This document shows, piece by piece, positions 34,086 through 49,809 of a DNA stretch of 64,000 nucleotides. The position numbers and the translations under genes are program-made. The stretch lies in NCBI RefSeq assembly GCF_006716425.1, contig NZ_VFOZ01000001.1:5704001-5768000 (forward strand), given 5' to 3'. The notes below the pieces were generated by a model that saw only the letters and a list, made by a program, of their open reading frames with translations, did not search any database and was not told where the DNA came from. Position 1 is the first letter of the stretch. Each line of letters begins with the position of its first letter. This DNA comes from Actinoallomurus bryophytorum. Its GTDB lineage: Bacteria; Actinomycetota; Actinomycetes; Streptosporangiales; Streptosporangiaceae.

Positions 34086-35492
34086 ATGTTCCACAGCGAG
34101 GGCAGCCTTTCGGGTGTGAAGACCGCCGTGCGCGTGGGTGCCACCACCACCGTGATCCTGCTGACCTGTGTCTCCGCCGCCGCGGGTTCGGTGAGGAGGC
34201 CCCAGACCGCCGCACATCCCGCCGTACTGGGCGCGGCGTTCGTCCCGCCCAAGCCCTGCCATGGCCATGCCGCCGCCGACTTCAACGGCGACGGCAGCGG
34301 CGACCACGCGGTCGGCGCCCCGTACGCCACCGTCTCCGGTCGCTTCCGCGCGGGCACCGTGGCCGTCGGCTACGGCGGGCACGTGACCTGGCTGACGATG
34401 CCGGCCGCCGAACGCGACGCCGGCTTCGGCGCCACGCTGGCCACCGGCGACTTCAACGGCGACCACTGCGCCGACCTGGCCGTGGGCGCCCCGGACCACG
34501 GGTCGCCGCGGCCGGGTGCGGACGGCACCGGGGCGGTGTACCTGTACTACGGCTCGCCGGACGGCCTGCGCCCCGGCCCGGTCCTCGGCGTGCGCGACCT
34601 CGGCCGCAAGCCGGGAACGGACCGGTTCGGCGCCGCCCTGGAGGTCGGCGACCTGGACGGAGACGGTCGCGACGACCTCGTCGTCGGCGCGCCCGGACTG
34701 ACCGGAGGCGGCGGCGTCGGCGTGTTCGGTCACGGGCGGCGCGACGGGCGGCTCATCACCCAGCGCACCTCGTGGGTGGGCCAGAAGACGAGCCAGACCG
34801 ACGGATTCGGGTCGGCCCTGGCGATCGGGAACTTCGACGGCGGCCGCCATCGGGAGCTCGCCGTGGGCGCGCCCGGCGACGGCGACGAGGCGTCGGGCGC
34901 GGTCACCGTGCTCGACCCCGCCGCCCGCCGGTCCCGCCGCGTCACGCAGGACAGCCCGGGGGTGCGCGGAGTCCCGGAACGCTACGACAAGTTCGGCGCG
35001 GCGGTCGCCGCCGCCGACATCGACCACGACGGCACCGACGAGCTCGCGATCGGCGTCCCCGGCGAGGACCAGACCAAGATCCCGGAGAACTTCGCGGCCG
35101 GCGCCGTGCACGTGCTGCACGCCTCCGGCCGCGACGACGTGTGGACGCTGAGCAAGGCCGGCGACTACGACCGGTTCGGCACCACCCTGGCCGCCGCCGA
35201 CCTCGACGGCAACGGCACCACCGACCTGGTCGCGAGCGCGACGGGCAGGGGAGCCGTGCAGGTGCTGACCGGCCACCGGGGAAGCGGCCTGCGCCGCGGC
35301 TCCCTGATCACCTCACCGGCCGGCCGGACATCCCAGTTCGGCTGGACGCTCACGATCCGCGGCCGTGACCTGTACGTCGGCGCCCCGGGAGCCCGCGGCT
35401 TCGGCGGCACGGTCTACCGCGTGCACGGCAAGAGCCGCACGCCGATCCAGAACGGTTCCACCGGCGAACTGCTCGGCTACGCCGTCGTGTGA
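34086..35492 (+). CDS. Secreted FG-GAP repeat (integrin-like propeller) protein
   Basis: A 468-aa exported protein. After a signal segment (VRVGATTTVILLTCVSAAAG) there are about seven FG-GAP repeats with calcium-binding loops such as DFNGDGSGDHAVGAP, DFNGDHCADLAVGAP, DLDGDGRDDLVVGAPG, NFDGGRHRELAVGAP, DIDHDGTDELAIGVP and DLDGNGTTDLVASATG. They should form a seven-bladed beta-propeller as in alpha-integrins. It may start at ATG 34086 or at GTG 34116; the latter gives a more typical signal peptide but has a weaker Shine-Dalgarno sequence. No enzyme domain is attached, so surface binding is the likely role. Confidence 0.85.
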   Translation: MFHSEGSLSGVKTAVRVGATTTVILLTCVSAAAGSVRRPQTAAHPAVLGAAFVPPKPCHGHAAADFNGDGSGDHAVGAPYATVSGRFRAGTVAVGYGGHVTWLTMPAAERDAGFGATLATGDFNGDHCADLAVGAPDHGSPRPGADGTGAVYLYYGSPDGLRPGPVLGVRDLGRKPGTDRFGAALEVGDLDGDGRDDLVVGAPGLTGGGGVGVFGHGRRDGRLITQRTSWVGQKTSQTDGFGSALAIGNFDGGRHRELAVGAPGDGDEASGAVTVLDPAARRSRRVTQDSPGVRGVPERYDKFGAAVAAADIDHDGTDELAIGVPGEDQTKIPENFAAGAVHVLHASGRDDVWTLSKAGDYDRFGTTLAAADLDGNGTTDLVASATGRGAVQVLTGHRGSGLRRGSLITSPAGRTSQFGWTLTIRGRDLYVGAPGARGFGGTVYRVHGKSRTPIQNGSTGELLGYAVV

Positions 35493-35738: not shown

Positions 35739-37319
35739 TCAGCGGGGGCCGGCGGCGACGGCGGCCTGTTGCTGCCGGGGCGTCGCGGCCTTCGACCGGG
35801 CGAGGCCGTGGGCACCGTCCGGCACGGTGAAGCTCGCCGCGATCGTACTCGGGGCGTTCCGCTTCGAGACGTAGGGCATCGTGTGGAAGTCGGCCCGCAG
35901 TTCCCCCGTCGTCAACCGGCACACGACGAATCCCCGGCGCTGGTCGACGTACTTGATGTGCGGGTTCTCCGCCAGTTCCACCGCGCGTCCGGCCGCGTCG
36001 TCGTACCCGTCGCCGTCGCTCGTGATCGACGTGGTGACCAGCTCGACCCCCACGCGCCGTGAGTCCGGGTCGTCGAAGTTCGCGAGCAGGTCGCTGGCGT
36101 AGTGGGCGTGGATGTCGCCGGTGAGCACGACCGGGTTACGGGCGCCGGACGCGGCGACGTCGCCGAGCACCCGGTCGCGTTCGGCCGCGTAGCCGTCCCA
36201 CGTGTCGACCAGCAGTTCCTTGCCCGGGCCCAGGTGATAGTCGTGCTGCGCCATGAAGATCTGCTGGGCGAGCACGTTCCAGCGCGCGCCCGAGGAACGG
36301 AGTCCCGAGGCCAGCCAGCGACGCTGCTCGGGCCCGGTCAGCACGCGCCGTGAGTCGAGACGCTCGTCGCAGTCCATCCGTACCCCGTCGTCGCACGGCT
36401 GGTCGGAGCGTACCTGGCGGGTGTCGAGCACGTGGAACGTCGCCAGCGAGCCCCACGAGAGCCGCCGGTACAGCTGGATCCGCGTCCCGCGCGGCATCGA
36501 CGCGCGGCGCAGCGGCATGTGCTCGTAGTACGCCCGGTACCCGGCGGCCTTGCGTTCGGCGAACCCCGGCGCGCCCGAGGTGCCCGGATGGGAGCCCGCC
36601 CAGTTGTTCTCGACCTCGTGGTCGTCGTTGACCGGGATCCACGGCGCGAGCGCGTGCAGCGCCCGCAGGTCCGCGTCGGTCTTGTACTGCGCGTGCCGCC
36701 GCCGGTAGTCGGTCAGCGTCTGGCACCGGCCCTCGGTGTGCGGGCGGACGACCATGCCGTCGGCCGCCTTGTACCCGCCCGGCGCGTACTCGTAGATGTA
36801 GTCGCCCAGGTGCAGCACCACGTCGGGCTGCTGCTCGGCGAGCCTGCGGTAGCCGGTGAAGTAGCCCTGCTCGTAGTTGGAGCAGGACACGGTCGCGAAC
36901 ATCAGGTCGGGTGCGGTGCCCGGCGCGGGCGCCGTACGTGTACGGCCCACCGGCGAGACGTACCCGGCCATGCGGAACCGGTAGAAGTACTCCCGGCCCG
37001 GCTGCAGTCCGGCCGCCTCGACGTGGACGCTGTGCGCCCATGACCGGCGCGCGGTGACCGTGCCCGACCGCACGACGCTCTTGAACCTCTCGTCGTCGGC
37101 GAGCTGCCACTCGACGTCGGCGTCGCGGGCGGACATGCCGCCGTGCCCGTCTTCGGCGAGCGGGTTCGGGGCGAGGCGGGTCCACAGGACGACGCCATCG
37201 GGGGTCGGGTCGCCCGACGCGACACCTAGGGAGAACGGATCGCCCGGGCGCCGGGAGAGGCGGGGGGCCACGGCCAGCCCGGCCGCTCCGATCAGCAGGT
37301 TCCGGCGTGTGAGTTGCAC
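35739..37319 (-). CDS. phoD: PhoD-family alkaline phosphatase/phosphodiesterase
   Basis: A 526-aa protein with a Tat signal (MQLTRRNLLIGAAGLAVAP, twin Arg at residues 5-6). An N-terminal Ig-like PhoD domain (VASGDPTPDGVVLWTRLAPN) is followed by the metallophosphatase: ATVSCSNYEQGYFTGYRRLA carries the metal-binding Cys of PhoD, HLGDYIYEYA the Asp, NDDHEVENN the Asn-Asp-His and LTGDIHAHYA the last His ligands. PhoD enzymes use Fe(III) and Ca(II) to release phosphate from mono- and diesters outside the cell. Usually Pho-regulated, but no clear PHO box is seen. It is convergent with the LacI remnant. Confidence 0.94.
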   Translation of the reverse strand: MQLTRRNLLIGAAGLAVAPRLSRRPGDPFSLGVASGDPTPDGVVLWTRLAPNPLAEDGHGGMSARDADVEWQLADDERFKSVVRSGTVTARRSWAHSVHVEAAGLQPGREYFYRFRMAGYVSPVGRTRTAPAPGTAPDLMFATVSCSNYEQGYFTGYRRLAEQQPDVVLHLGDYIYEYAPGGYKAADGMVVRPHTEGRCQTLTDYRRRHAQYKTDADLRALHALAPWIPVNDDHEVENNWAGSHPGTSGAPGFAERKAAGYRAYYEHMPLRRASMPRGTRIQLYRRLSWGSLATFHVLDTRQVRSDQPCDDGVRMDCDERLDSRRVLTGPEQRRWLASGLRSSGARWNVLAQQIFMAQHDYHLGPGKELLVDTWDGYAAERDRVLGDVAASGARNPVVLTGDIHAHYASDLLANFDDPDSRRVGVELVTTSITSDGDGYDDAAGRAVELAENPHIKYVDQRRGFVVCRLTTGELRADFHTMPYVSKRNAPSTIAASFTVPDGAHGLARSKAATPRQQQAAVAAGPR

Positions 37320-37609
37320 GCCTCTAGTTCAGGTGCCGCTTCTGCCCGTCACGGGACGTGACGCTGACGTGCCGGACAACATCGTGTGGCGGCCTCATGA
37401 CTGCGTTCTGGCATGTCCCAGACTCTACGAGTTAGAGAGATTTTTGCAATAGTCCGTTCGTTTATTGCGCTAATTCGTCCGTCGTCCTACTGTGTGCTCA
37501 GCCCAACGCCGTCGGCAAGGCGGCCAGACCCCACCCCCCGCCGGGGTTCGTTGTCAGCGCGTCCCTGATCACGCGATGACTCCGGCTCTTCGCCAAGAAG
37601 GGTTAAGCG
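37320..37609. promoter_or_regulatory. Regulatory region of the GH87-like gene
   Basis: Divergent promoter region between phoD and the glucanase gene. It contains TTGCAATA (37445-37452) and TTATTGC about 11 bases later, an imperfect inverted repeat (GCAATA/TATTGC), similar in core to the TGCAAGC/GCTTGCA repeat before the LacI gene. It is a candidate LacI-family operator. Confidence 0.4.
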
Positions 37610-39970
37610 ATGGTCACGTCAGGACATCCACCCACCGCACCGTCGAGACTCAAGGCCATGGCACTCGCCGTCACGGCCGCGCTCGCACTCGTCGCGAGCG
37701 TCCTCGCCATCCCGGCCCTGTCGTCGTCGACGGCCTCCGCCGCGACCGCTACGGACACGCCCTGGTCCTTCTCCGGACGCGGCGCGACGGTGCCGTTCGC
37801 CGAGGTCGAGGCGGAGAGCGCGGCCACCAACGGCACGGTCATCGGCCCGGACCGCGTCTACACCCACCTGCCGTCGGAGGCCTCCGGCCGCCAGGCGGTC
37901 ACGCTCAACGGGTCGGGCAAGTACGTGGAGTTCACCGTCCCGAAGGCCGCCAACGCGATGTCGGTGCGCTACAGCGTGCCCGACGGCTCGAACGGGACCG
38001 GGCTGACCACGCCCGTGGACCTGGTCGTGAACGGCACCAAGCTGAAGGACCTGTCCCTCACCTCGAAGTACTCCTGGTACTACGGCGGCTATCCGTTCAG
38101 CAACAACCCCGGCGACGGGAGCCCGCACCACTTCTACGACGAGACCCGCACGATGTTCGGCTCGACGCTGGCGCAGGGCACCAAGGTCCGCATCCAGACC
38201 TCCGGCGCCACGACGGCCGCGGTGACCGTGGACCTGGCCGACTTCGAGAACGTCGCGGCGCCGATCGGGCAGCCGTCCGGCTCGCTCTCGGTGGACTCCT
38301 ACGGAGCCGCCAAGAACAGCGCGACCGACTCCACGGCCGCGTTCCAGGCCGCCGTCGACGCGGGCAAGGCCCAGGGCAAGGTCGTCTACATCCCGCAGGG
38401 CACGTACACGCTGTACGGCCACGTGATCGTGGACGGAGTCACGCTCGCCGGCGCCGGCCCGTGGTACAGCGTGCTCACCGGCCGTGACCCGAACAACCGC
38501 AGCCGCGCCGCCGGCATCTACGGCAAGTACGTCGCCGACGGCGGCCCGAGCCAGAACGTCACCCTCAAGGACTTCGCCATCATCGGCGAGATCACCGAGC
38601 GGGTCGACGCCGACCAGGTCAACGGCCTGGGCGGGGCGATGAGCAACTCCACCGTCGATGACCTGTGGATCCAGCACACCAAGGTCGGTGCCTGGATGGA
38701 CGGCCCGATGGACCACTTCACGATCAAGAACAGCCGGATCCTGGACCAGACCGCCGACGGCGTGAACTTCCACATCGGCGTGACCAACTCGACGGTGACC
38801 AACACCTTCGTACGGGGCGTCGGCGACGACGGCCTGGCGAGCTGGCCCGAGAACAAGCCCAACGTGAACGACTCGTTCACGCACAACACCGTGGTGGCGC
38901 CGGTCCTGGCGAACAACATCGTCACCTACGGCGGCCGTGACTTCACCATCTCCGACAACGTCGTCTCCGACACGGTCACCAACGGCGGCGGCATCCACGT
39001 CGCCAACCGCTACCCGGGCGTCAACTCCGGCAGCGGCACGGCCGTCGCGGGGACCATCACGGTGGCCCGCAACTCCCTGCTGCGCGCGGGCAACTCCGAC
39101 TACAACTGGCAGTTCGGTGTCGGCGCGATCTGGTTCGACGGGCTCAACGAGGCGATCAACGCGACGGTGAACGTCACCGACACCGACATCATCGACAGCT
39201 CCTACGAGGCGATCCAGTTCATCGAGGGCGGCGCCACGCACACGGTGAACTTCAACAACGTCAACGTCGCCGGCACCGGGACGTACATGATCCAGGCCCA
39301 GTCCGGGGCGACCGCGACGTTCAACAACGTCAAGGCGTCCTACATCGGCGCGGGCGTCGACATCCACAACTGCGTCGGCACGGGGTTCGCCCCGACGTAC
39401 GGCAGCGGCAACAGCGGCTGGACCCTCGGCTCGACCACCTGCACCGGCCAGTGGCCCGCCCCCAACTACATCTACCCGGGCGGGACCGGCGGCGGCACCC
39501 CGCCGCCCACCGACCCGCCGACGGACCCGCCGCCCACCTGCACCCCGGGGAGCGGCAACATGGCGCAGGGCAAGACGGCGACCGCGACCAGCCACACGCA
39601 GAATTACGTCGAGTCCAACGCGGTCGATGGTGACGCGAACAGCTACTGGGAGAGCGCCAACAACGCCTTCCCGCAGCGCATCACGGTCGACCTGTGCGCC
39701 AAGACCAACGTCGGCAGGGTCGTGCTGAAGCTGCCGCCTGCGACCGCGTGGGCCACGCGTACGCAGACCCTCTCGGTGCTGGGCTCCACGGACGGCTCCA
39801 CCTTCACCACCCTCGCCGGTTCGCGCGGGGTCACCTTCAACCCCTCCAGCGGCAACACCGCCACGGTCTCCTTCACCCCGGCGAGCACTCGCTACGTGCG
39901 TGTCGAGATCACCGGCAACACGGGCTGGCCGGCCGGTCAGCTTTCCGAGTTCGAGGTGTACGCCTCGTAA
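37610..39970 (+). CDS. Secreted GH87-like alpha-1,3-glucanase (mycodextranase type)
   Basis: A 786-aa exported hydrolase. A signal peptide (LAVTAALALVASVLAIPAL) is followed by a CBM6/35-like domain (about residues 58-220), a right-handed beta-helix catalytic domain (about 225-620), a Pro/Thr linker and a discoidin (F5/8 C) domain (about 645-786). In the helix, ADGVNFHIG carries D383 and GVGDDGLASW carries D406 and D407. This D-x22-DD spacing equals that of the catalytic triad reported for GH87 alpha-1,3-glucanase. It would cleave alpha-1,3-glucan (mutan, fungal wall) to oligosaccharides. ATG 37610 has AAGGG at good spacing. Neighbours are a LacI regulator and a sugar importer. Confidence 0.8.
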   Translation: MVTSGHPPTAPSRLKAMALAVTAALALVASVLAIPALSSSTASAATATDTPWSFSGRGATVPFAEVEAESAATNGTVIGPDRVYTHLPSEASGRQAVTLNGSGKYVEFTVPKAANAMSVRYSVPDGSNGTGLTTPVDLVVNGTKLKDLSLTSKYSWYYGGYPFSNNPGDGSPHHFYDETRTMFGSTLAQGTKVRIQTSGATTAAVTVDLADFENVAAPIGQPSGSLSVDSYGAAKNSATDSTAAFQAAVDAGKAQGKVVYIPQGTYTLYGHVIVDGVTLAGAGPWYSVLTGRDPNNRSRAAGIYGKYVADGGPSQNVTLKDFAIIGEITERVDADQVNGLGGAMSNSTVDDLWIQHTKVGAWMDGPMDHFTIKNSRILDQTADGVNFHIGVTNSTVTNTFVRGVGDDGLASWPENKPNVNDSFTHNTVVAPVLANNIVTYGGRDFTISDNVVSDTVTNGGGIHVANRYPGVNSGSGTAVAGTITVARNSLLRAGNSDYNWQFGVGAIWFDGLNEAINATVNVTDTDIIDSSYEAIQFIEGGATHTVNFNNVNVAGTGTYMIQAQSGATATFNNVKASYIGAGVDIHNCVGTGFAPTYGSGNSGWTLGSTTCTGQWPAPNYIYPGGTGGGTPPPTDPPTDPPPTCTPGSGNMAQGKTATATSHTQNYVESNAVDGDANSYWESANNAFPQRITVDLCAKTNVGRVVLKLPPATAWATRTQTLSVLGSTDGSTFTTLAGSRGVTFNPSSGNTATVSFTPASTRYVRVEITGNTGWPAGQLSEFEVYAS

Positions 39971-40032
39971 CCCCCGACCGCGCCCGGAGGAGGACTGGAC
40001 GCATCCTCCTCCGGGCGTCCAGTCCCTCGTGG

Positions 40033-40067
40033 ACGCAAGGCTTTCAGGAACGCTGAGAGCCTTGCGT
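40033..40067 (+). terminator. Terminator hairpin of the GH87-like gene
   Basis: ACGCAAGGCTTTCAG and CTGAGAGCCTTGCGT form a 15-bp stem with one T-G pair and a 5-nt loop (GAACG), 63 bases after the stop. Confidence 0.75.
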
Positions 40068-40085
40068 TCCGGGAGCCGAAAGCCA

Positions 40086-40121
40086 TGCAAGCGAATTGCG
40101 TTGAACGGCCGTATGCTTGCA
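40086..40121. promoter_or_regulatory. LacI operator candidate at the regulator start
   Basis: TGCAAGC (40086-40092) and GCTTGCA (40115-40121) are exact inverted repeats immediately before the GTG at 40124. TGCAAGC/GCTTGCA half-sites are common for actinomycete LacI-family sugar regulators, so autorepression is likely. Confidence 0.55.
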
Positions 40122-40123
40122 AC

Positions 40124-41167
40124 GTGACACGTGTACCGGGGGAAGTGACCAAGACGCGCCGGTTGGCCGAGGTGGCGAAGAAGGTCGGGGTCAGCGAGGC
40201 GACCGTCAGCCGGGTCCTCAACGGAAAGCCCGGCGTCTCCGACGCGACACGTGCGGCGGTGCTCACCGCCCTCGACGTCCTCGGCTACGAGCGGCCCACC
40301 CAGCTCCGCGGCGAGCGCGCGCGGCTCGTGGGCCTGGTCCTGCCCGAGCTCGGCAATCCGATCTTCCCGGCACTGGCCGAAGTGATCGGGGGAGCGCTGG
40401 CCCAGCAGGGCTTCACGCCCGTCCTGTGCACCCGCACCGCCGGCGGCCTCTCGGAGGCCGACTACATCGAGATGCTGATCGACCAGCAGGTCTCGGGAGT
40501 GGTGTTCGCGGGCGGCCACTACGCGGAGGTCAACTCGCCCCACGAGCACTACCACCGCCTGTTCGACCTGCGCCTGCCGGTCGTGCTCGTCAACGCGGCC
40601 GTCGACGAGCTCACCTTCCCGCGCGTGTCCACCGACGACATGGTCGCGGTGGACCAGGCCTTCGGCCATCTGCTCTCGCTCGGTCACGAGCGCATCGGCC
40701 TCGTGCTCGGCCCGGAGGACCACATGCCGTCGCGACGCAAGCTCGCGGCGTTCACCGCGGCGTCGAAGGCGGCAGGGTTCGAGCTGGACGACAACGCCGT
40801 GGAGCACGCGCTCTTCTCGCTCGAGGGCGGCCAGGCGGTCACCCGGCGTCTCGTCGCCAACGGTTTCACCGGGATCATCTGCGCGAGCGACCCGCAGGCC
40901 CTCGGCGCGATCCGCGCCGTACGCCGGGCGGGTCTCACGGTGCCGGGTGACGTCTCCGTGGTCGGCTTCGACGACTCGGCGTTCATCAACTGCACCGACC
41001 CGCCGCTGACGACGGTGCGCCAGCCGATCGAGTCGATGGGCCGGGCCGCGGTGACGATGCTCGTCAACCAGATCGACCGGACCGCCTTCACGGCGGAGGA
41101 GCTTCTCTACGAGCCGGAGCTCGTCGTGCGAGGGTCCACCGCCCCCGCGCGGCTCCTCACGGCCTGA
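40124..41167 (+). CDS. LacI family regulator of the glucan locus
   Basis: A 347-aa repressor. The DNA-binding domain is RLAEVAKKVGVSEATVSRVL followed by the hinge VLNGKPGVSDATRAAVLTAL; the periplasmic-binding-protein-like core spans residues about 65-345, with VVGFDDSAFINCTDPPLTTV as the dimer/ligand signature. I prefer GTG 40124 (leaderless or weak ribosome binding site); ATG 40085 and GTG 40145 are alternatives. It lies between the GH87-like gene and the sugar importer, and probably controls both, releasing on a glucan oligosaccharide. Confidence 0.92.
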   Translation: MTRVPGEVTKTRRLAEVAKKVGVSEATVSRVLNGKPGVSDATRAAVLTALDVLGYERPTQLRGERARLVGLVLPELGNPIFPALAEVIGGALAQQGFTPVLCTRTAGGLSEADYIEMLIDQQVSGVVFAGGHYAEVNSPHEHYHRLFDLRLPVVLVNAAVDELTFPRVSTDDMVAVDQAFGHLLSLGHERIGLVLGPEDHMPSRRKLAAFTAASKAAGFELDDNAVEHALFSLEGGQAVTRRLVANGFTGIICASDPQALGAIRAVRRAGLTVPGDVSVVGFDDSAFINCTDPPLTTVRQPIESMGRAAVTMLVNQIDRTAFTAEELLYEPELVVRGSTAPARLLTA

Positions 41168-41550
41168 CTCGCGGCGCGCCCGCCGGGCGGGAGAGCCACG
41201 TCCGGATCCGGACGACCACAGGATCACGATCCTGTCACGACGCATGCCCTCGGACGGTTCCCGCGACCCTTCGTCGCCGGGCGAATGTGTCCCAGGTCAC
41301 TAAATAACCGCAGGTAAGAGGATTCGACGGCCCGGCGGACCGGCGCTCTGCACACCTCGCTCGGCTATCTGTCCAGTTTTTTCATCGATATGACTGCCTC
41401 TTGCTCCAGACTGCTCATCTCTGTATGTTCCTGGCAACCGGGTGCACGAAGCGCGTTCGTCGTCCGTACGTGACACGTCAGGACGCCGGCCGTGTGCGGG
41501 GGTCCGGCCGGATGGTCTTCGTGGTGCCAATCCAGGAGGGGAAGTCTTTG
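41168..41550. other. Intergenic region upstream of the sugar importer
   Basis: This 383-bp region has no gene. It should contain the importer promoter; AT-rich stretches occur at 41290-41320 and 41370-41430. No exact copy of the TGCAAGC operator half-site is present. Confidence 0.4.
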
Positions 41551-42933
41551 ATGAAAGCCCGTCATCTCGCGGTCCTGGTGGCCGGAGTCACCGCACTGGC
41601 CAATGTCGCCGCGTGTGGCACCAGCAGCAGTAACGACAACGACAAGGGTTCGAAGGCGGCGAACATCGCCCCGCTCGATCCGAACACCAAAGTGTCGATC
41701 ACCGTGGGCTGTCAGCCGCCGAAGAGCTCGAAGGTGCTGCGCACCGAGTGGAACAACGACGTGACCGCGTTCCAGCAGCTGCACCCGAACATCACGATCG
41801 TGAGCAAGGACGCGTTCCCTTGCGAGGACCCGAAGACGTTCACGGCCAAGCTGGCCGGTGGCCAGATGGAGAACGTCTACTACGTCTACCTCACGGACGC
41901 CAAGAACATCATCGCCAACGGCCAGGCCGCCGACATCACCAAGTACGTCTCCGGGGTCAAGAACTACGGCAGCCTCCAGCCGCAGCTGCTGAACGTCTTC
42001 AAGGGCGGCGGCAAGCTCTACGGTCTGCCCAAGACCAACTACTCCATGGGCCTGCTCTACAACCGCAAGCTGTTCCAGCAGGCCGGGCTCAACCCCGACC
42101 AGCCGCCCACGACGTGGGCCGAGGTCCAGGCGGACGCCAAGAAGATCTCCGCGCTCGGCAACGGCATCGTCGGCTACGCCGACTACAGCGCCGGCAACCA
42201 GGGTGGCTGGCACTTCACCGCCGAGATGTACTCCCAGGGCGGCGACATCGTGACGCCGGACGGCAAGAAGGCGGCCTTCAACAGCCCGCAGGGCCACGCC
42301 GTGCTGCAGAACCTCCAGCAGATGCGCTGGACCGACAACAGCATGGGCGCCAAGCAGCTGCTGCAGATCGCCGACGTCCAGCCGATGATGGCCTCCGGCA
42401 AGCTCGGCATGTACCTGTCCGCGCCGGACAACATCCCCACCATCAAGGACCAGTTCCAGGGCAAGTTCGAGGACTACGGCCTGGCGCCGATGCCGAACGG
42501 TCAGGGCACCCTGATCGGTGGCGACGGCTACATGTTCAACCCCAAGTCCAGCCCGGACCAGATCAAGGCCGGCATCCTCTGGCTGGAGTTCGAGAACCTC
42601 ACCCCGGGCAAGGGCCAGTTCGACTGGGCGCAGAAGAAGATCGACAAGCAGCCGGTCGGGCTGCCGCAGCCGAACATCTTCACCGGAGCCCCGGCCGCCG
42701 AGGAGCTCCAGATCCGCAAGCAGAACTCCAACCTGCCGGTGGACAACTACAAGGCCTTCGCCGACGGTGACCCCAAGGTGAAGTACCGCCTCGAGCCGCC
42801 GCAGGCCCAGCAGATCTACGCGGTCCTGGACGGCGTGGTCTCCTCGGTGCTCACCAACAGGAACGCCGACGTCAACAGCCTGCTCTCCAAGGCCGAGACC
42901 AAGGTCAACGGCATCCTCGCGAACGCCGAGTAA
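41551..42933 (+). CDS. Sugar ABC transporter substrate-binding lipoprotein
   Basis: A 460-aa family 1 solute-binding protein. The signal peptide ends in the lipobox ANVAAC with the lipidated Cys at residue 22, then a Ser/Asp/Gly linker. The mature part has the two-lobe fold typical of oligosaccharide binders, with GLPKTNYSMGLLYNRKLFQQ, NQGGWHFTAEMYSQGG and MPNGQGTLIGGDGY contributing the sugar site. The ATG at 41551 has GGAGGGG upstream. A strong hairpin follows, which may raise its mRNA over that of the permeases. Probable cargo is alpha-glucan oligosaccharide. Confidence 0.93.
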   Translation: MKARHLAVLVAGVTALANVAACGTSSSNDNDKGSKAANIAPLDPNTKVSITVGCQPPKSSKVLRTEWNNDVTAFQQLHPNITIVSKDAFPCEDPKTFTAKLAGGQMENVYYVYLTDAKNIIANGQAADITKYVSGVKNYGSLQPQLLNVFKGGGKLYGLPKTNYSMGLLYNRKLFQQAGLNPDQPPTTWAEVQADAKKISALGNGIVGYADYSAGNQGGWHFTAEMYSQGGDIVTPDGKKAAFNSPQGHAVLQNLQQMRWTDNSMGAKQLLQIADVQPMMASGKLGMYLSAPDNIPTIKDQFQGKFEDYGLAPMPNGQGTLIGGDGYMFNPKSSPDQIKAGILWLEFENLTPGKGQFDWAQKKIDKQPVGLPQPNIFTGAPAAEELQIRKQNSNLPVDNYKAFADGDPKVKYRLEPPQAQQIYAVLDGVVSSVLTNRNADVNSLLSKAETKVNGILANAE

Positions 42934-42937
42934 TACC

Positions 42938-42977
42938 GCGGCGGGGGCCGGTCACCGTGCGCACCGGCCCCCGCCGC
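42938..42977 (+). terminator. Intercistronic hairpin after the binding-protein gene
   Basis: GCGGCGGGGGCCGGT and ACCGGCCCCCGCCGC make a perfect 15-bp stem with a 10-nt loop between the binding protein and the first permease. It probably attenuates read-through or protects upstream mRNA, as in maltose operons. Confidence 0.75.
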
Positions 42978-43031
42978 TCCATGCTGAACCCCGGTACGGG
43001 GCCAGGTGAGAACGGAGGCGGACGGCGAATC

Positions 43032-43967
43032 ATGGACATCTCGCTCTCGAGAAGGACGCGGTGGGGACCACGCCCCCGCCGCGGACGCGGCGTGCAGCGG
43101 AACCTGACCGCGTACGGGTTCCTGTGCGCCGCCCTCGTGTGCTTCGCGGTCTTCTCCTGGTACCCGATCGTCCGCGAGGTCATCCTCAGCTTCCAGAAGA
43201 CCAACTTCGTCGGCGACACCAAATGGGTGGGCCTGAAGAACTTCCACCGGGTCATCGAGGACCCGTCGTTCAGCGCCGCGTGGAAGAACACCGCGATCTT
43301 CACGCTGCTTGCGCTCATCTGCGGCTACGCCGTGCCGTTCGTGACGGCGCTGCTGCTGAACGAGCTACGGCACGCGCGCGGCTACCTGAGGTTCGTGGTC
43401 TACCTGCCGGTGATGCTGCCGCCGGCGGTGTCGGTGCTGCTCTTCAAGTGGTTCTACAACCCCGGGCCGGGCCTGTTCAACGAGATCCTGAGGTTCGTGC
43501 ACCTGCCGACTCTGGCCTGGCTGGACTCCGGCAAGACGGCGCTGATCTCCCTGGTCATCGTCGCGACCTGGACGAACATGGGCAGCGGAACCCTCATCTA
43601 CCTGGCCGCGCTGCAGACGGTGCCGGCCGAGCTGTACGAGGCCGCGGAGCTGGACGGGGCCGGGCTCCTCCGGCGGATCCGGCACATCACGATCCCGCAG
43701 ACCAAGCTGATCCTGCTGGTCATGCTCCTGCTGCAGATCATCGCGACGATGCAAGTCTTCATCGAACCGTTCCTGCTCACCGGAGGCGGTCCGGACAACG
43801 CGACGGTGAGCGTCGTCTACCTCATGTACCAGTACGCCTTCAACTTCAACAACTTCGGCAGCGGTGGGGCGCTCGGCCTCATGCTGATGCTCGTTCTCGT
43901 CATCTTCTCCGCCGTCTACCTGCGGCTTTCCCGTGATGACCGCGACGGCCGGGCCGCCAGGGTCTGA
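43032..43967 (+). CDS. Sugar ABC transporter permease (MalF/UgpA type)
   Basis: A 311-aa inner-membrane protein with six helices. The cytoplasmic EAA motif that docks the ATPase reads LYEAAELDGAGLLRRIRHIT then IPQ. A 30-residue Arg-rich tail precedes the first helix. ATG 43032 was chosen; an upstream GTG at 42957 lies in the hairpin. It pairs with the next gene to form the channel of a carbohydrate importer. No ATP-binding subunit gene is in the cluster, so a shared MsiK-like ATPase encoded elsewhere is expected. Confidence 0.93.
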   Translation: MDISLSRRTRWGPRPRRGRGVQRNLTAYGFLCAALVCFAVFSWYPIVREVILSFQKTNFVGDTKWVGLKNFHRVIEDPSFSAAWKNTAIFTLLALICGYAVPFVTALLLNELRHARGYLRFVVYLPVMLPPAVSVLLFKWFYNPGPGLFNEILRFVHLPTLAWLDSGKTALISLVIVATWTNMGSGTLIYLAALQTVPAELYEAAELDGAGLLRRIRHITIPQTKLILLVMLLLQIIATMQVFIEPFLLTGGGPDNATVSVVYLMYQYAFNFNNFGSGGALGLMLMLVLVIFSAVYLRLSRDDRDGRAARV

Positions 43968-43981
43968 GGTTAGGAGCTTCG

Positions 43982-44941
43982 ATGTCGAACGTCCTGGACC
44001 GCCCGGTCCGTACGGCCCCCGCCCCCGCACCCCCGCGACGGGTCAGAAGATCACGGCGTACGGAGCCGGCACAGCGCACGCTGGTGTCGCCGCACAGCCT
44101 GCGGTCGCGGCGTGGCCGGATCATCTACTGGACCGTGCTGACCTTCACCGTCCTGGTGTTCACGCTGGTCTTCGTCTTCCCGCTGTACTGGATGGTCACG
44201 GGGGCGATGAAGTCCTCCAGTGAGCTCGTACGGCTGCCGCCCACGATCTTCCCCAAGGATCCGCATCCGGAGGTGTACAAGAAGGCCTGGAGCCAGATGG
44301 ACCTGGGCCGCTACATGTTCAACACGTTCATCTACGCCCTGGGAGCCTGGCTCCTTCAGCTCGCGGTCGACGTGTCGGCCGCCTTCGCGCTGTCCAAGCT
44401 GCGGCCGATGTTCGGCAAGCTCGTCCTCGGCGGCATGCTGCTCACCCTCATGATCCCCCCGACCGTCCTGCTGCTCCCCGCCTACCTCACCGTGCGGGAC
44501 ATCCCGATCCTGCACCTCAACCTGCTGAACACGCCCTGGGCGATCTGGCTGCCGGCCGCCGCCAACGGGTTCAACATCTTCCTGCTCAAACGATTCTTCG
44601 ACTCCATCCCGTCGGAGCTGCTCGAAGCGGCGGCCATCGACGGGGCCTCGGCACCACGCATGCTGTGGTCGATCATCCTGCCGGTCTCCCGGCCGATTCT
44701 CGGTGTCGTGTCGATCTTCGCGGTGGTCAACGTGTGGAAGGACTTCGTCTGGCCGCTGCTGGTGATGCCCGACACCAACAAGATGCCGGTGAGCGTGGCG
44801 ATCTCCCAGCTCTCCCAGCAGATGCCGCAGAACGTACTCATAGCCGCGCTGGTGATCGCGAGCCTTCCGGCGATAGCGGTCTTCTTCATCTTCCAGCGCA
44901 ACATCATGGCCGGCCTCACGGCCGGTGGCCTCAAGGGCTGA
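43982..44941 (+). CDS. Sugar ABC transporter permease (MalG/UgpE type)
   Basis: A 319-aa six-helix permease. The EAA loop reads LLEAAAIDGASAPRMLWSII then LPVSRP. The C-terminal part (LTAGGLKG) matches the family ending. An Arg/Pro-rich cytoplasmic start of about 45 residues is longer than usual. It begins 15 bp after the first permease, with AGG-type ribosome binding site, in the same operon. Confidence 0.94.
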   Translation: MSNVLDRPVRTAPAPAPPRRVRRSRRTEPAQRTLVSPHSLRSRRGRIIYWTVLTFTVLVFTLVFVFPLYWMVTGAMKSSSELVRLPPTIFPKDPHPEVYKKAWSQMDLGRYMFNTFIYALGAWLLQLAVDVSAAFALSKLRPMFGKLVLGGMLLTLMIPPTVLLLPAYLTVRDIPILHLNLLNTPWAIWLPAAANGFNIFLLKRFFDSIPSELLEAAAIDGASAPRMLWSIILPVSRPILGVVSIFAVVNVWKDFVWPLLVMPDTNKMPVSVAISQLSQQMPQNVLIAALVIASLPAIAVFFIFQRNIMAGLTAGGLKG

Positions 44942-45023
44942 TCCGCCCTAGCGGGCCCGAGTGCGTCCCTCGGCGAGCCGCGGATCGACCACGAACACTT
45001 CGCCAGAGAAGGAGTAGTCCAGC

Positions 45024-46574
45024 ATGCCTGAAACGTGGTGGCGGGGAGCCGCGATCTACCAGGTCTATCTGCGGAGCTTCGCCGACGGTAACGGTGACGG
45101 CCTCGGCGACCTGGCCGGACTGCGCAGTCGTCTGGCCTATCTGTCGGCTCTCGGGATCGACGCCATCTGGCTCAACCCCTGGTATCCCTCGCCGATGTCG
45201 GACGGAGGGTACGACGTCGCGGACTACCGGAACATCGAACCCATCTTCGGCACGCTCGCCGAGGCGGAGAAGCTGATCCAGGAGGCCCACGACCTCAACA
45301 TCAAGATCATCATCGACGTCGTGCCGAACCACTCCTCGGACCAGAACGCGTGGTTCCAGGAGGCGCTCGCGGCCGGTCCCGGCTCGGAGGCCCGGGAGCG
45401 GTTCTGGTTCCGGCCCGGCAAGGACGGGGGGCCGCCGAACGACTGGCAGTCCATCTTCGGCGGCCCCGCCTGGACGCAGGTCCCGGATGGTGAGTGGTAT
45501 CTCCACCTGTTCGCACCCGAGCAGCCCGACTTCAACTGGAACAGCGACGCCGTACGCGAGGAGTTCCTCGACGTCCTGCGGTTCTGGTACGACCGGGGCG
45601 TGGACGGCATCCGGATCGACTCGGCGGCCGTGCTCATCAAGGACCCGGACGCCGAACCGGACGGGCTCGACCCGTACACCGACCGCGACGCCGTCCACGA
45701 CGTCTACCGCGAGTGGCGCCGCGTGTCCGACACGTACTCCGGCCGCTTCCTGATCGGCGAGGTCTGGCTGCCGGACCAGGAGAGGTTCGCCCGGTACCTG
45801 AGGCCGGACGAGCTGCACACGGCGTTCAACTTCGACTTCCTTTCCTGCCCCTGGGAACCCTCCGCGCTGCGCCGGGTGATCGACACCACGCTCGCCACCC
45901 ACGAGCCGATCGGGGCACCGCCCACGTGGGTGCTGTCCAACCACGACGTCACCCGGCCCGTCACGAGGTACGGGCGGGCGGACACCTCCTTCACCCACGA
46001 CGACCGCAAGCACGGGATGCCCTCGGACCGCGAACTCGGCATCCGGCGGGCGCGGGCGGCGGCCCTGCTCGCCATGGCGCTGCCCGGCGGCGTGTACGTC
46101 TACCAGGGCGAGGAGCTCGGCCTGCCGGAGGTCGAGGACATCCCGGACGCGCTGCTGCAGGACCCGATCTGGGCCAGGTCGGGCCACACCGACCGGGGCC
46201 GCGACGGCTGCCGGGTGCCGGTGCCGTGGTCCGGCGACGCGCCGCCCTACGGATACGGCGGCGACCCCTGGCTGCCGCAGCCTCCGGACTGGCAGGAGCT
46301 CACCGTCGAGGCGGAGGAACACGACGCGTCCTCGATGCTCAACCTGTACCGCACGGCCCTGCGGATCCGCCGCGACCGGCTCGGCGACGGCACGATCACC
46401 TGGGTCCCGCTCGGCGACGAGGTGCTCGCCTTCGCCCGCGAATCGGGCCTGACGTGCGTGGTCAACCTCGGCCAGGAGCCGGTACGCCTGCCGGATCACC
46501 AGCAGATCTGCCTGGCCAGCGGCCCGGTCGACGGTGGCCTGCTGCCCTCCGACACCGCGGTCTGGCTGATCTGA
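45024..46574 (+). CDS. GH13 alpha-glucosidase
   Basis: A 516-aa cytoplasmic alpha-glucosidase/oligo-1,6-glucosidase (GH13_30-like). The conserved regions are present: DVVPNHSSDQ (region I), GIRIDSAAV with nucleophile D199 (region II), FLIGEVW with acid/base E246 (region III) and VLSNHDVTRP with D308 (region IV). No signal peptide. It starts 82 bp after the permease with GAAGGAG upstream and is likely co-transcribed. It would finish the breakdown of imported alpha-glucosides such as nigero-oligosaccharides or maltose. Confidence 0.94.
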   Translation: MPETWWRGAAIYQVYLRSFADGNGDGLGDLAGLRSRLAYLSALGIDAIWLNPWYPSPMSDGGYDVADYRNIEPIFGTLAEAEKLIQEAHDLNIKIIIDVVPNHSSDQNAWFQEALAAGPGSEARERFWFRPGKDGGPPNDWQSIFGGPAWTQVPDGEWYLHLFAPEQPDFNWNSDAVREEFLDVLRFWYDRGVDGIRIDSAAVLIKDPDAEPDGLDPYTDRDAVHDVYREWRRVSDTYSGRFLIGEVWLPDQERFARYLRPDELHTAFNFDFLSCPWEPSALRRVIDTTLATHEPIGAPPTWVLSNHDVTRPVTRYGRADTSFTHDDRKHGMPSDRELGIRRARAAALLAMALPGGVYVYQGEELGLPEVEDIPDALLQDPIWARSGHTDRGRDGCRVPVPWSGDAPPYGYGGDPWLPQPPDWQELTVEAEEHDASSMLNLYRTALRIRRDRLGDGTITWVPLGDEVLAFARESGLTCVVNLGQEPVRLPDHQQICLASGPVDGGLLPSDTAVWLI

Positions 46575-46581
46575 GGACACG

Positions 46582-46613
46582 GGCGCCTGCCGGCATCCCC
46601 GCCGGCAGGCGCC
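46582..46613. terminator. Bidirectional terminator between GH13 and sigma factor genes
   Basis: GGCGCCTGCCGGC and GCCGGCAGGCGCC form a perfect 13-bp stem with 6-nt loop ATCCCC exactly between convergent stop codons. Confidence 0.85.
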
Positions 46614-46615
46614 GG

Positions 46616-47638
46616 TCAACGTAGGGGGCGCAACGCGCGCGGCAGGCCGAACCTCGGGAGCAGCCCGTTGTCCAGGAACCGCGTGAGCGCGCAGATCCGC
46701 TCACCGGACAGCGTGAGAACGATCAGTCCGTGGGCGTGCGCGATCGGCGTCCCCGGGTCGAGCACGTACGCGCCGAACGCGGGCTGACCGTTGGCCCGCG
46801 TGGGCACCAGGCGGTACCGGCGGCCCTCCCGCAGCGCGACCGTCGACAGGAAGTGGCCCGTCGCCGCGAGCCCCTGGTACTCCAGCGGCAGCGGCGGCAT
46901 GGTCAGCCACACGTCGTCGGTGAGCAGGGCGAGGATCGCGTCGACGTCACCGCTCTCGAAGGCCAGGGAGAAATCCTCGACGATCTTCCGCTCGCGCGCC
47001 GTGTCCGGCAGCGGCGCGTGGTCGCGGTCGGCCGCGGGCAGGCGGGTCGCGAGCGTCGCGCGCGCCCGGTACAGCGCGCTCGCGACGGAGCTCTCACTGC
47101 CCTCCAGCATGCCGGCGACCTCGGCCGCACGGAAGCCGAGCACGTCCCGCAGGACCAGCACCGCCCGCTGCCGCGGCGGCAGGTGCTGCAGGGCGGCGAG
47201 GAACGCCAGGGAGACCGACTCCCTGCTCTCGTAGCGCGCCTCCGGGCCCGGCGACCCGTCCGGCAGGTCCTCGATCAAGGCGTCCGGGTAGGGCTCGAGC
47301 CAGCTGGGGTCACCGCGGCGTGTGGGCTCGGGCAAGGAGACCTCCGGAGAGATCGCCGGTCGTTCGCCGGACCGGCGGGCGCCGTCGCGCAGGGCGTTCA
47401 GGCAGCGGTTGGTCGCGATCCGGTACAACCAGGAGCGCAGCGACGATCGCCCCTCGAATCCTCCGAGCCCGCGCCAGGCGGCCAGGAGGGTCTCCTGAAG
47501 CAGGTCCTCGGCGTCCTGGACCGAGCCCAGGATGCGGTAGCAGTGCATCTGGATCTCACGCCGGTACGGCTCGGTGAGCTCACGGAACGCCCGCCCGTCG
47601 CCGGCCCGCGCCCGCTCGAGTGCGTCCTCGCCCGGCAT
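46616..47638 (-). CDS. ECF sigma factor with SnoaL-like C-terminal domain
   Basis: A 340-aa RNA polymerase sigma factor. Region 2 is YRILGSVQDAEDLLQETLLA (with WRGLGGFEGRSSLRSWLYRI), region 4 is LQHLPPRQRAVLVLRDVLGF and EVAGMLEGSESSVASALYRA. An extra SnoaL/NTF2-like domain follows from about residue 215 to the end (IVEDFSLAFESGDVDAILAL). Sigma factors of this build have the C-terminal domain in place of an anti-sigma factor, so activity is likely set by that domain. ATG 47638 was chosen. It is downstream of the kinase gene in the same orientation. Confidence 0.92.
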   Translation of the reverse strand: MPGEDALERARAGDGRAFRELTEPYRREIQMHCYRILGSVQDAEDLLQETLLAAWRGLGGFEGRSSLRSWLYRIATNRCLNALRDGARRSGERPAISPEVSLPEPTRRGDPSWLEPYPDALIEDLPDGSPGPEARYESRESVSLAFLAALQHLPPRQRAVLVLRDVLGFRAAEVAGMLEGSESSVASALYRARATLATRLPAADRDHAPLPDTARERKIVEDFSLAFESGDVDAILALLTDDVWLTMPPLPLEYQGLAATGHFLSTVALREGRRYRLVPTRANGQPAFGAYVLDPGTPIAHAHGLIVLTLSGERICALTRFLDNGLLPRFGLPRALRPLR

Positions 47639-47721
47639 CGTCTCGCCTTCGCAGTCGGATCTCACATCCGTACAGACACCGCGCGTACGCGAAAGTGTTC
47701 GCCGGTGGGGACCTGAGGACG

Positions 47722-49809
47722 CTATCCGGCGGCGAGCTGGTCCTGGGTCTGCCAGGACGTCTGGATCCCGGCGCCCGAGCCTTTGCACCGGCCGACGTTG
47801 ACCGTGACCTGGTCCTGCGTACGGGTGGTCTTGGCGCCGTAGCGGGTCTTCGGGCCGTTGTCGAAGCTCTGCGTGCCGCCGTTCCGCGAGGTCAGGGTGG
47901 TGCTCACGTACACCGCGCCAGGGCCCTTGACGTGGCCACGGAGCTGGAGGCAGACGTCCCAGCCGTCCTTCGGCGCCGTGTCCCCGAGGACGACGCTGCC
48001 GGTGTAGGCGCCGCGGCAGACCGACGTCTTGAGGAGTACGGAGCCGGCGCCGGCCACGCTGTACGCGCGCTGGTAGTCGCGGCAGCCCTTGGCGGGGGGC
48101 TTCGCGTGCTTCTTGGGCGGCTTGGGGGCGCCCGACCGGATGCCGTTCAGCTGCGGGCCGTGGGTCACGGACGGCGACGGAGTGGGCGGCGGAGGCGTCG
48201 TGGGGGCGGTCGCCGCATGCGCCTGCGGCGCCGCTCTGGCGGCGTCGCCGCTGTCGGGCCAGAGGGGGACGGCCACGACGGCGCCGACGACGATGACGGC
48301 GGCACCCGCCAGGATCGCCCAGCCGAGCCGCCGCCTGCCGGCGGGGGCGGCGACGGAGGTGGCCGCGGGCGTGAGAACGGACCCGCTGGGTGACCGCTCG
48401 GCCCGCGGTGCCTGGCGGCCCGCGCCGTCGGCCGCCGGCCGGTCGGCGGAGGGGCCGCTCCCCGGGGTGGAGGGGCGGCCTCCTGCGGAGCCGGGGCCGC
48501 CCGTGGTGGCGGACGAGCCGCTCCCCGCGGCGCGTACGACTCCGCCTCGGGCCGCCGGCCGAGAGGGCCGGTCGCGTACGTCCTGATCCTGGGGACCGGG
48601 GTTCAGCCCGGCCGGTGGCGTCGCCGGGGCGGGCTGTCGCGTCGCCGCCGGCGCACCGGCGGGCCCGGCGGGCCCGGCGGGCCCGGCGGGCCCGGCCACC
48701 GTCTGTGCGGAAGGGCCGCCTTCGGCCGTCGCGACCCAGGGCCGGCCGGCCGGTTCGTGCCTGGTCGCCGACCCGCCCGTGCCGGGGGCGGGAGGCCGCG
48801 CCCCGTGCGGCATGGCGGCGGCCGTGTCGTGGGAGGCGTCGCCTCCGGCGGGGGTGTGCACCACCCAGGGTCCGTCCGGCGCAGGCTCGCCGGCCTCACC
48901 GCCGTGCGCCGTCACGGCGGCCGGCGGCGTTTCGGCGGCGCCGGAGGCAGCGTCGGCCGGGGACGCGCCGAACGCCGGGGGAGGCATCAGGGCCTCCGTG
49001 GCCTCGTGGCCCAGCAGGCTCGCCTGGGCCTGCTGCGCGGTCGGCCGCTGGGCGGGGTCCTTGGACAGGCACGCCGTCACGACCGAGCGCAGGGGCTCCG
49101 GCAGCGCCGACACGTCCGGCTCGGCGTGCATGATGCGTTCCATCACGGCGTGCACGGACTCGTTGCCGAACGGCGGGCGGCCGGTGCCGGCGAACACGAT
49201 CGTCGATCCCCAGGCGAACATGTCGGCGGGCGGGCCGACCTCGCGGCTGGAGACCTGTTCCGGCGACATGTACGCCGGCGTACCGACCGTGTTGGTGTCC
49301 TCGAGGCGCACGGCGCCCAGGGCGCGGGCGATGCCGAAGTCGATGACCCGTGGCCCGTCCGGGCCCACCAGGACGTTGTGCGGGGTGAAGTCGCGGTGGA
49401 CGATGCCCGCCTTGTGGATCGCGGCGAGCGCGGTCAGCGTGCCGATCGCCAGACGTTCGAGCGCGCCGCCCGTACGCGGGCCGTCGGCGCTGATGTGGGA
49501 CCGGAGGGAGCGCCCCTCGACGTACTCGCTGACGATGTAGGGATGGTCGCCGGCGACGTCGGCGTCCAGCACCTGCGCCGTACAGAAGCGCGCCACCTTC
49601 TTGGCGGCGGCCAGCTCGCGTATGAACCGCTCGCGCGCACCGCGGTTCTCGGCCATCCGTGCGTGCAGCAGCTTGATCGCCACGTGCTCGCCCGAGGGGT
49701 CGCGGCCGAGGTAGACGACCCCCTGGCTGCCCTCGCCGAGTCGCCGGAGGAGCCGGTTGCCGCCGAGCTCGGCCGGGTCACCCGGTAGCAGCGGATGGCC
49801 GTCGGGCAT
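47722..49809 (-). CDS. Membrane Ser/Thr protein kinase with extracellular domain
   Basis: A 695-aa Hanks-type kinase. The kinase domain (about residues 17-270) has GEGSQG, Lys46, catalytic HRDFTPHNVL (Asp140) and DFG (Asp157). HRDFTPHN replaces the common HRDLKPxN, including loss of the Lys. A long Pro/Ala/Gly-rich linker with a run of GPA triplets leads to a transmembrane helix (LGWAILAGAAVIVVGAVVAV) near residue 520, then an extracellular domain (about 575-695) with four Cys and no PASTA repeat. GGAGG precedes ATG 49809. The outer domain presumably senses a signal. Confidence 0.9.
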   Translation of the reverse strand: MPDGHPLLPGDPAELGGNRLLRRLGEGSQGVVYLGRDPSGEHVAIKLLHARMAENRGARERFIRELAAAKKVARFCTAQVLDADVAGDHPYIVSEYVEGRSLRSHISADGPRTGGALERLAIGTLTALAAIHKAGIVHRDFTPHNVLVGPDGPRVIDFGIARALGAVRLEDTNTVGTPAYMSPEQVSSREVGPPADMFAWGSTIVFAGTGRPPFGNESVHAVMERIMHAEPDVSALPEPLRSVVTACLSKDPAQRPTAQQAQASLLGHEATEALMPPPAFGASPADAASGAAETPPAAVTAHGGEAGEPAPDGPWVVHTPAGGDASHDTAAAMPHGARPPAPGTGGSATRHEPAGRPWVATAEGGPSAQTVAGPAGPAGPAGPAGAPAATRQPAPATPPAGLNPGPQDQDVRDRPSRPAARGGVVRAAGSGSSATTGGPGSAGGRPSTPGSGPSADRPAADGAGRQAPRAERSPSGSVLTPAATSVAAPAGRRRLGWAILAGAAVIVVGAVVAVPLWPDSGDAARAAPQAHAATAPTTPPPPTPSPSVTHGPQLNGIRSGAPKPPKKHAKPPAKGCRDYQRAYSVAGAGSVLLKTSVCRGAYTGSVVLGDTAPKDGWDVCLQLRGHVKGPGAVYVSTTLTSRNGGTQSFDNGPKTRYGAKTTRTQDQVTVNVGRCKGSGAGIQTSWQTQDQLAAG

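Follow-up and report, generated by a model that had tools for sequence, protein, structure and literature searches.

Many fungi have alpha-1,3-glucan in their walls, and the polymer is also a component of dental plaque. In the Firmicute Lachnoclostridium phytofermentans, a described cluster combines a GH65 nigerose phosphorylase, a GH31_u1 alpha-1,3-glucosidase, ATP-binding cassette (ABC) transporter genes and LacI genes, with a putative GH87 gene nearby (PMC9061262). Streptomyces isolates are reported to grow on mutan, in a paper whose main text does not contain the word "transporter" (PMC11475409), and in Streptomyces scabies MsiK is encoded apart from its importer operon (PMC4890002). The authors of a study of Prevotella melaninogenica state that, to their knowledge, no GH87-containing polysaccharide utilisation locus has been experimentally characterised (PMC13421300). 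Here we analysed a 64,000-nucleotide stretch of the Actinoallomurus bryophytorum genome (C1:5704001-5768000 of 9.47 Mb; hereafter the window), in which a GH87 enzyme, a LacI-family regulator, a solute-binding protein (SBP), two permeases and a GH13 alpha-glucosidase are encoded together. Judged from sequence comparisons, this locus is very probably part of an alpha-1,3-glucan utilisation regulon.

The GH87 enzyme and its conserved neighbourhood

The 786-residue protein that opens the locus belongs to GH87, as an earlier note made from the letters alone had predicted. Both Pfam domains of the family scored above the cut-off of 27 bits, CatAgl_D1 at residues 61-215 (1e-49, 169 bits) and the beta-helix CatAgl_D2 at residues 254-565 (1e-19, 71 bits), and the closest solved relatives are the GH87 alpha-1,3-glucanases 7C7D (9e-123), 5ZRU and 6K0M. 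Pfam and the PDB matches agree in placing the beta-helix inside this family; a placement outside it was what the note had named as refuting its reading. The aspartates singled out in the note, D383, D406 and D407, are present and align with the catalytic aspartates of the solved enzymes, which in Agl-FH1 are D1045, D1068 and D1069 (PMC10696023). Of the extra modules that had been proposed, the discoidin domain was recovered as a C-terminal F5/8-type binding module at residues 657-781, and the supposed N-terminal domain resembling a carbohydrate-binding module proved to be CatAgl_D1, the D1 part of the catalytic unit. A signal peptide was read by eye. By analogy with its solved relatives, the enzyme would endo-hydrolyse alpha-1,3-glucan. 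A pectate-lyase or other beta-helix family was considered and rejected, the rhamnogalacturonase/epimerase match (56 bits) being weaker than the matches to CatAgl_D1 and D2.

The association of GH87 with the importer goes far beyond chance. Across a set of 249 genomes from the order Streptosporangiales (GH87 matches at E 1e-40, SBP matches at 1e-80), GH87 was found in 98 genomes and the SBP in 123; both occurred in 95, GH87 alone in three, the SBP alone in 28 and neither in 123 (Fisher 1e-38, a value that ignores relatedness). Put differently, the SBP is present in 95/98 GH87-bearing genomes, compared with 28/151 others. We then mapped the window proteins by tblastn onto 126 loci, representing all SBP matches of this set except the window's own, some of them cut by contig ends. 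The five-gene core was complete on one strand in 114 of these loci, and a GH87 gene lay no more than 11 kb from the SBP gene in 76. The position of GH87 varied, either divergent or on the same strand, and its similarity fell into high, middle and low classes; in five Planotetraspora loci, the operon is flanked by two GH87 genes. An SBP search of named genomes returned 74 loci, nine of which repeat order-set loci (eight of the nine with GH87). All five core proteins matched in 69 of the 74, and GH87 was found within 11 kb in 60.

GH87 adjoins the SBP gene in Streptomyces, Catellatospora, Asanoa, Labedaea and Actinacidiphila, among other genera. In Streptomyces seoulensis, the gene directly after GH13 encodes a GH87 enzyme identical at 481 of 581 residues (83%; 1031 bits) to Agl-ST, the Streptomyces thermodiastaticus HF3-3 enzyme represented by 7C7D (PMC11475409, PMC10696023). 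The operon is thereby connected with one named alpha-1,3-glucanase and not just with GH87 generally. Pfam searches for GH87 and GH71 found neither in 14 named control genomes, and the GH87 profile, which recovers three genes in the window's own genome, found nothing in 28 further genomes with neither a GH87 nor an SBP match.

A diverged version of the arrangement (L162) was also observed, with the SBP at 32%, the permeases at 45-49%, GH13 at 60% and an adjoining GH87 at 38%; its genome (G030) is one of the three GH87 genomes scored as lacking the SBP. The core operon additionally appeared on a metagenome-bin contig labelled Candidatus Melainabacteria (L193), probably through a binning error.

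A shared promoter element and the organisation of the locus

Many SBP upstream regions have TTTTTGCA...TTGC...TGTATGTT in common, with (C/T)TGTATGTT occurring in 49 of 127. The pattern TTTTTGCA-N14-18-TTGC has a single match in the window, before the GH87 gene, where the likely -35 box begins with its TTGC. A second element, with TTTTTTCA as its left half, precedes the SBP gene, and the spacing is 16 bp in both. An element of the TTTTTGCA-N16-TTGC type was also found 5' of the GH87 orthologues in two other loci (L034, L035). More broadly, a direct TTGC-N16-20-TTGC repeat is present in the upstream regions of 108/127 SBP, 33/94 GH87 and 58/116 LacI genes, compared with 38/858 upstream regions of other open reading frames (ORFs) in the same loci; the classes overlap, since a GH87 gene and a LacI gene that diverge have their upstream region in common. 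The strict form TTTTGC-N14-20-(A/C)TTGC precedes 61/127 SBP genes and 4/858 controls. Searching all 249 genomes for TTTTTGCA-N15-17-TTGC gave 85 matches, of which 54 lie directly 5' of an SBP gene, five of a GH87 gene and 26 elsewhere. The reversed pattern gave 24 matches (summed by eye), so that the 26 elsewhere are at about chance level; the four of them that were fetched had no GH87 gene nearby.

Within the 9.47-Mb genome, TTTTTKCA-N16-TTGC occurs exactly three times, 5' of the window GH87 gene, of the SBP operon and of a second GH87 gene at a distance of about 954 kb, and the reversed pattern does not occur at all. At this third site, the element lies 119 bp upstream of the likely ATG, again with TTGC at a possible -35 position. 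The second GH87 gene (G000:C1:4784502 to about 4787402; L160, L001) is unlinked and encodes a protein closest to Agl-FH1 (6k0m, 6e-127). The element is kept in orthologous promoters of Actinomadura sp. DC4 (L255, with TTTTTGCG) and Actinoallomurus iriomotensis (L254). Upstream of the third GH87 gene, from G000:C3:13296 onwards on another contig (L161), a related TTGC repeat runs in the opposite sense, as it does at the DC4 counterpart of this gene (L256). Another SBP-permease set, with 29-33% identity, is encoded about 5 kb from the third gene.

A common promoter element hence stands before degradation and uptake genes alike, as in a regulon. The earlier note had called the locus self-contained; the element at the distant GH87 gene indicates a regulon instead, and the operon also has no ATPase gene of its own. 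The regulator carries both a LacI HTH and a periplasmic-binding-like domain (Pfam), the combination typical of LacI/GalR proteins. We infer that it binds the TTGC element, which we take to resemble the CTTGCAG repeats of Streptomyces MalR. No classical LacI operator with an AACGTT core was found in 37001-46700.

Table 1. Genes and sites of the locus; positions are counted from the first letter of the window.
Feature	Position	Strand	Basis
Direct-repeat promoter element TTTTTGCA-N16-TTGC, 5' of GH87	37441..37468	+	Pattern search
Likely sigma-70-type promoter of GH87: TTGCGC, 17 bp, TACTGT	37465..37493	+	By eye
Predicted secreted GH87 alpha-1,3-glucanase, 786 aa	37610..39970	+	Pfam, PDB matches, residues
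Hairpin 3' of GH87, possible transcript end	39985..40013	+	Folding of 39985-40035, z -3.1
17-bp inverted repeat, outer GCAAG/CTTGC, 5' of lacI	40031..40069	+	Folding of 40030-40085, z -5.5
Regulator of the LacI family, probably a local repressor	40085..41167	+	Pfam LacI HTH, Peripla_BP_3
Direct-repeat element TTTTTTCA-N16-TTGC, 5' of SBP operon	41377..41404	+	Genome pattern search
Likely promoter of transport operon: TTGCTC, 17 bp, TATGTT	41401..41429	+	Boxes by eye
Solute-binding lipoprotein (SBP) of sugar ABC importer	41551..42933; ORF open from 41401	+	Pfam SBP_bac_1 5e-25; lipobox VAAC by eye
Strong hairpin between SBP and permease genes	42938..42977	+	Folding of 42930-42990, z -4.5
ABC permease 1	42957..43967	+	Pfam BPD_transp_1 5e-18
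ABC permease 2	43982..44941	+	Pfam BPD_transp_1 1e-15
GH13 alpha-glucosidase, no visible signal peptide	45024..46574	+	Pfam Alpha-amylase 5e-96; motif residues
Hairpin 3' of GH13, probable operon end	46576..46617	+	Folding of 46574-46620, z -6.1

All six genes lie on the strand and at the positions reported for them in the note (Table 1). Given the hairpins after GH87, the SBP gene and GH13, GH87 is probably a transcription unit of its own, with the transport genes and GH13 forming a second. The hairpin between the SBP and permease genes hints that permease 1 really starts at the ATG at 43032, and inspection by eye showed the hairpin that trails GH87 in L034 and L035 as well. The inverted repeat before lacI, which ends 15 bp short of the gene and whose left arm is present in L034, where the sequence inspected ended at that arm, could be a terminator, an operator or a leader structure. 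Directly 3' of lacI, two tandem inverted repeats with perfect 7-bp arms (CGTCCGGATCCGGACG, CAGGATCACGATCCTG) occupy 41199-41234. Pfam assigned ordinary neighbours to the locus: an FG-GAP repeat protein (34086-35492), a PhoD-like phosphatase (35739-37319) and a factor of the sigma-70 family that also has a weak match of SnoaL type (46616-47788).

Importer, internal glucosidase and competing explanations

The binding lipoprotein and the two BPD_transp_1 permeases fit a CUT1-type sugar ABC importer, whose ligand would be nigero-oligosaccharides. The missing ATPase gene remarked on in the earlier note is real, as Pfam found none within the operon, and MalK-type ATPases lacking a detected permease neighbour are encoded elsewhere. 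A profile search of the genome gave five OB_MalK matches, four of them above the cut-off; in the 16-kb surroundings of these five, two loci (L246, L250) had no match to the window permeases, a weak test with such distant queries. The ATPase of L246, which is adjoined by a LacI gene, or that of L250 might act as a shared subunit of the MsiK type.

The catalytic triad of the GH13 enzyme, assigned from motifs, comprises the nucleophile D199, E246 and D308, and Ser200 follows the nucleophile. We aligned 200 GH13 sequences, with none dropped, and inspected this position. Among the 194 operon-linked sequences, it is Ser in 186, Val in five, Cys in one and a gap in two, while the six unlinked sequences have three Ser and three Val. 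Val is also found in three paralogues of the same genome (L163 has two of them, L245 the third) and in PDB 8YIE, the best GH13 match. The position is presumably a specificity site in GH13 enzymes, and here Ser200 marks a GH13 group and is not proof of specificity. The enzyme would cleave the alpha-1,3 linkages of nigero-oligosaccharides. At L245:7711-10462, a LacI paralogue from the same genome (49% identical) is directly followed by a GH13 gene (55%), with no transport gene match between them.

Several observations weigh against an alpha-1,3-glucan regulon. The solved relatives of the SBP are distant and of mixed specificity, and the genomes compared are related, so that their counts are not independent. 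In 50/126 loci, GH87 is missing from the 11 kb around the SBP gene, and no single catabolic gene was seen to replace it there; among seven recurrent neighbours listed, one appeared by eye to be 2-isopropylmalate synthase-like and one sugar dehydrogenase-like. Among the 28 genomes that have the SBP but no GH87 match, 26 also lacked GH87 by Pfam profile, and GH71, considered as a substitute, was present in just five of the 28. The importer can therefore exist without a known mutanase, where it may serve scavenging, be left after loss of the enzyme or act on another substrate. As for the element, its strict form precedes just 13/94 GH87 and 2/116 LacI genes, and no such repeat was found 5' of GH87 in L257 (DC4), L258 or L263 (G201). 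Furthermore, TTTTTKCA-N16-TTGC was built from two of its three matches, leaving the third and the L254/L255 relatives alone to test the pattern.

Two further points of this kind concern the enzyme itself: GH87 includes mycodextranases besides alpha-1,3-glucanases (PMC13421300), and the match to Agl-ST is moderate (415 bits). Both fit a different substrate, nigeran, an alternating alpha-1,3/1,4-glucan, in which case the window GH87 would be a mycodextranase and the importer would take nigerosyl-glucose and its dimer; actinomycete mycodextranases are also reported to cluster together (PMC10696023). We consider this unlikely, given that one operon-linked GH87 shares 83% identity with Agl-ST and that the top solved match of the window enzyme is an alpha-1,3-glucanase, in a comparison made with solved alpha-1,3-glucanases, mycodextranase sequences being outside the set.

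It also seems improbable to us that GH87 serves to attack fungi by wall lysis, with the transport operon co-regulated merely to recover debris. Alpha-1,3-glucan does occur in fungal walls and is digested by a GH87 enzyme (PMC10696023), and the genome has three GH87 genes, but the fact that GH87 is linked to importer and glucosidase genes favours feeding as the primary role. Attack and feeding are compatible and not mutually exclusive. Least probable of all is a maltose or general alpha-glucoside system with GH87 as a neighbour whose products are also accepted: the order LacI-SBP-permease-permease-GH13 is also that of the Streptomyces maltose operon, the relatives of the GH13 enzyme are alpha-glucosidases and the 26 genomes mentioned above lack GH87 by profile too, but a second SBP-permease-GH13 operon of the same genome (L163) encodes an SBP that matches maltose- and trehalose-binding proteins at 1e-75 and 2e-59, compared with just 1e-6 and 6e-6 for the window SBP, leaving the operon of the window available for a different sugar, the Ser of the window group is replaced by Val in all three paralogues, and the importer operon shares its promoter element with two GH87 promoters.

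The proposed regulon and related systems

Overall, the gene identities, the catalytic residues, the conserved neighbourhood, the co-occurrence of GH87 and SBP and the shared element bear out in substance the alpha-1,3-glucan utilisation proposed in the earlier note. In the regulon that we propose, the secreted GH87 would use its C-terminal module to bind the polymer and would cut alpha-1,3-glucan, whether fungal wall glucan or mutan, to nigerose and short nigero-oligosaccharides. These would be captured by the lipoprotein and imported through the two permeases, with an ATPase from elsewhere in the genome supplying the power, and the cytosolic GH13 alpha-glucosidase would split them to glucose. 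LacI would repress at least three promoters, those of the window GH87, the transport operon and the second GH87 gene at C1:4784502, through the direct TTGC repeats that cover the -35 box, and would be released by an imported oligosaccharide.

On balance, we favour a further step: that this is a previously undescribed, actinomycete-wide regulon, in which LacI acts on TTGC repeats to control at least one secreted GH87 and a dedicated nigero-oligosaccharide importer, and that the GH13 enzyme with Ser after its nucleophile is an alpha-1,3-glucosidase, the counterpart of the Firmicute GH31_u1 enzyme and GH65 nigerose phosphorylase. Its parts are ordinary and a related Firmicute cluster is known. 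The earlier note had held that such a system is not textbook in actinomycetes; this stands among the literature matches listed (titles and the starts of abstracts, with subscription literature mostly outside their scope), where neither the operon nor the combination was described for actinomycetes, while the arrangement itself turned out to be common in actinomycete genomes. If the proposal is true, the conserved importer and glucosidase define how soil actinomycetes eat alpha-1,3-glucan, and they provide a sequence marker for this ability as well as a GH13 group named for alpha-1,3 specificity. The promoter element would, in addition, point to further co-regulated mutanases. Since the set recurs across soil actinomycetes under one shared control signal, its function should be easy to test.

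The L. phytofermentans cluster resembles the window system in its putative extracellular GH87, ABC uptake, internal cleavage and LacI regulators; it differs in belonging to a Firmicute and in using GH65 and GH31 for the internal step where the window system has GH13, and the available text of its description mentions no shared promoter element (PMC9061262). The P. melaninogenica GH87-GH97-GH99 locus is likewise GH87-based, but, in place of an ABC importer, relies on a TonB-dependent transporter and a surface sugar-binding protein (PMC13421300). In S. scabies, CebEFG/MsiK shows the same plan of an SBP and two permeases in one operon, an ATPase encoded elsewhere and a local repressor, although it is a cellobiose importer, acting on beta-1,4-gluco-oligosaccharides and accompanied by other enzyme families (PMC4890002). 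Finally, Agl-ST (PDB 7C7D), with its 83% identical relative in the S. seoulensis operon, has the same D1 and beta-helix D2 unit and the same aspartates as the window enzyme, which is a more distant subtype (415 vs 1031 bits), placed 5' of lacI with its own promoter.

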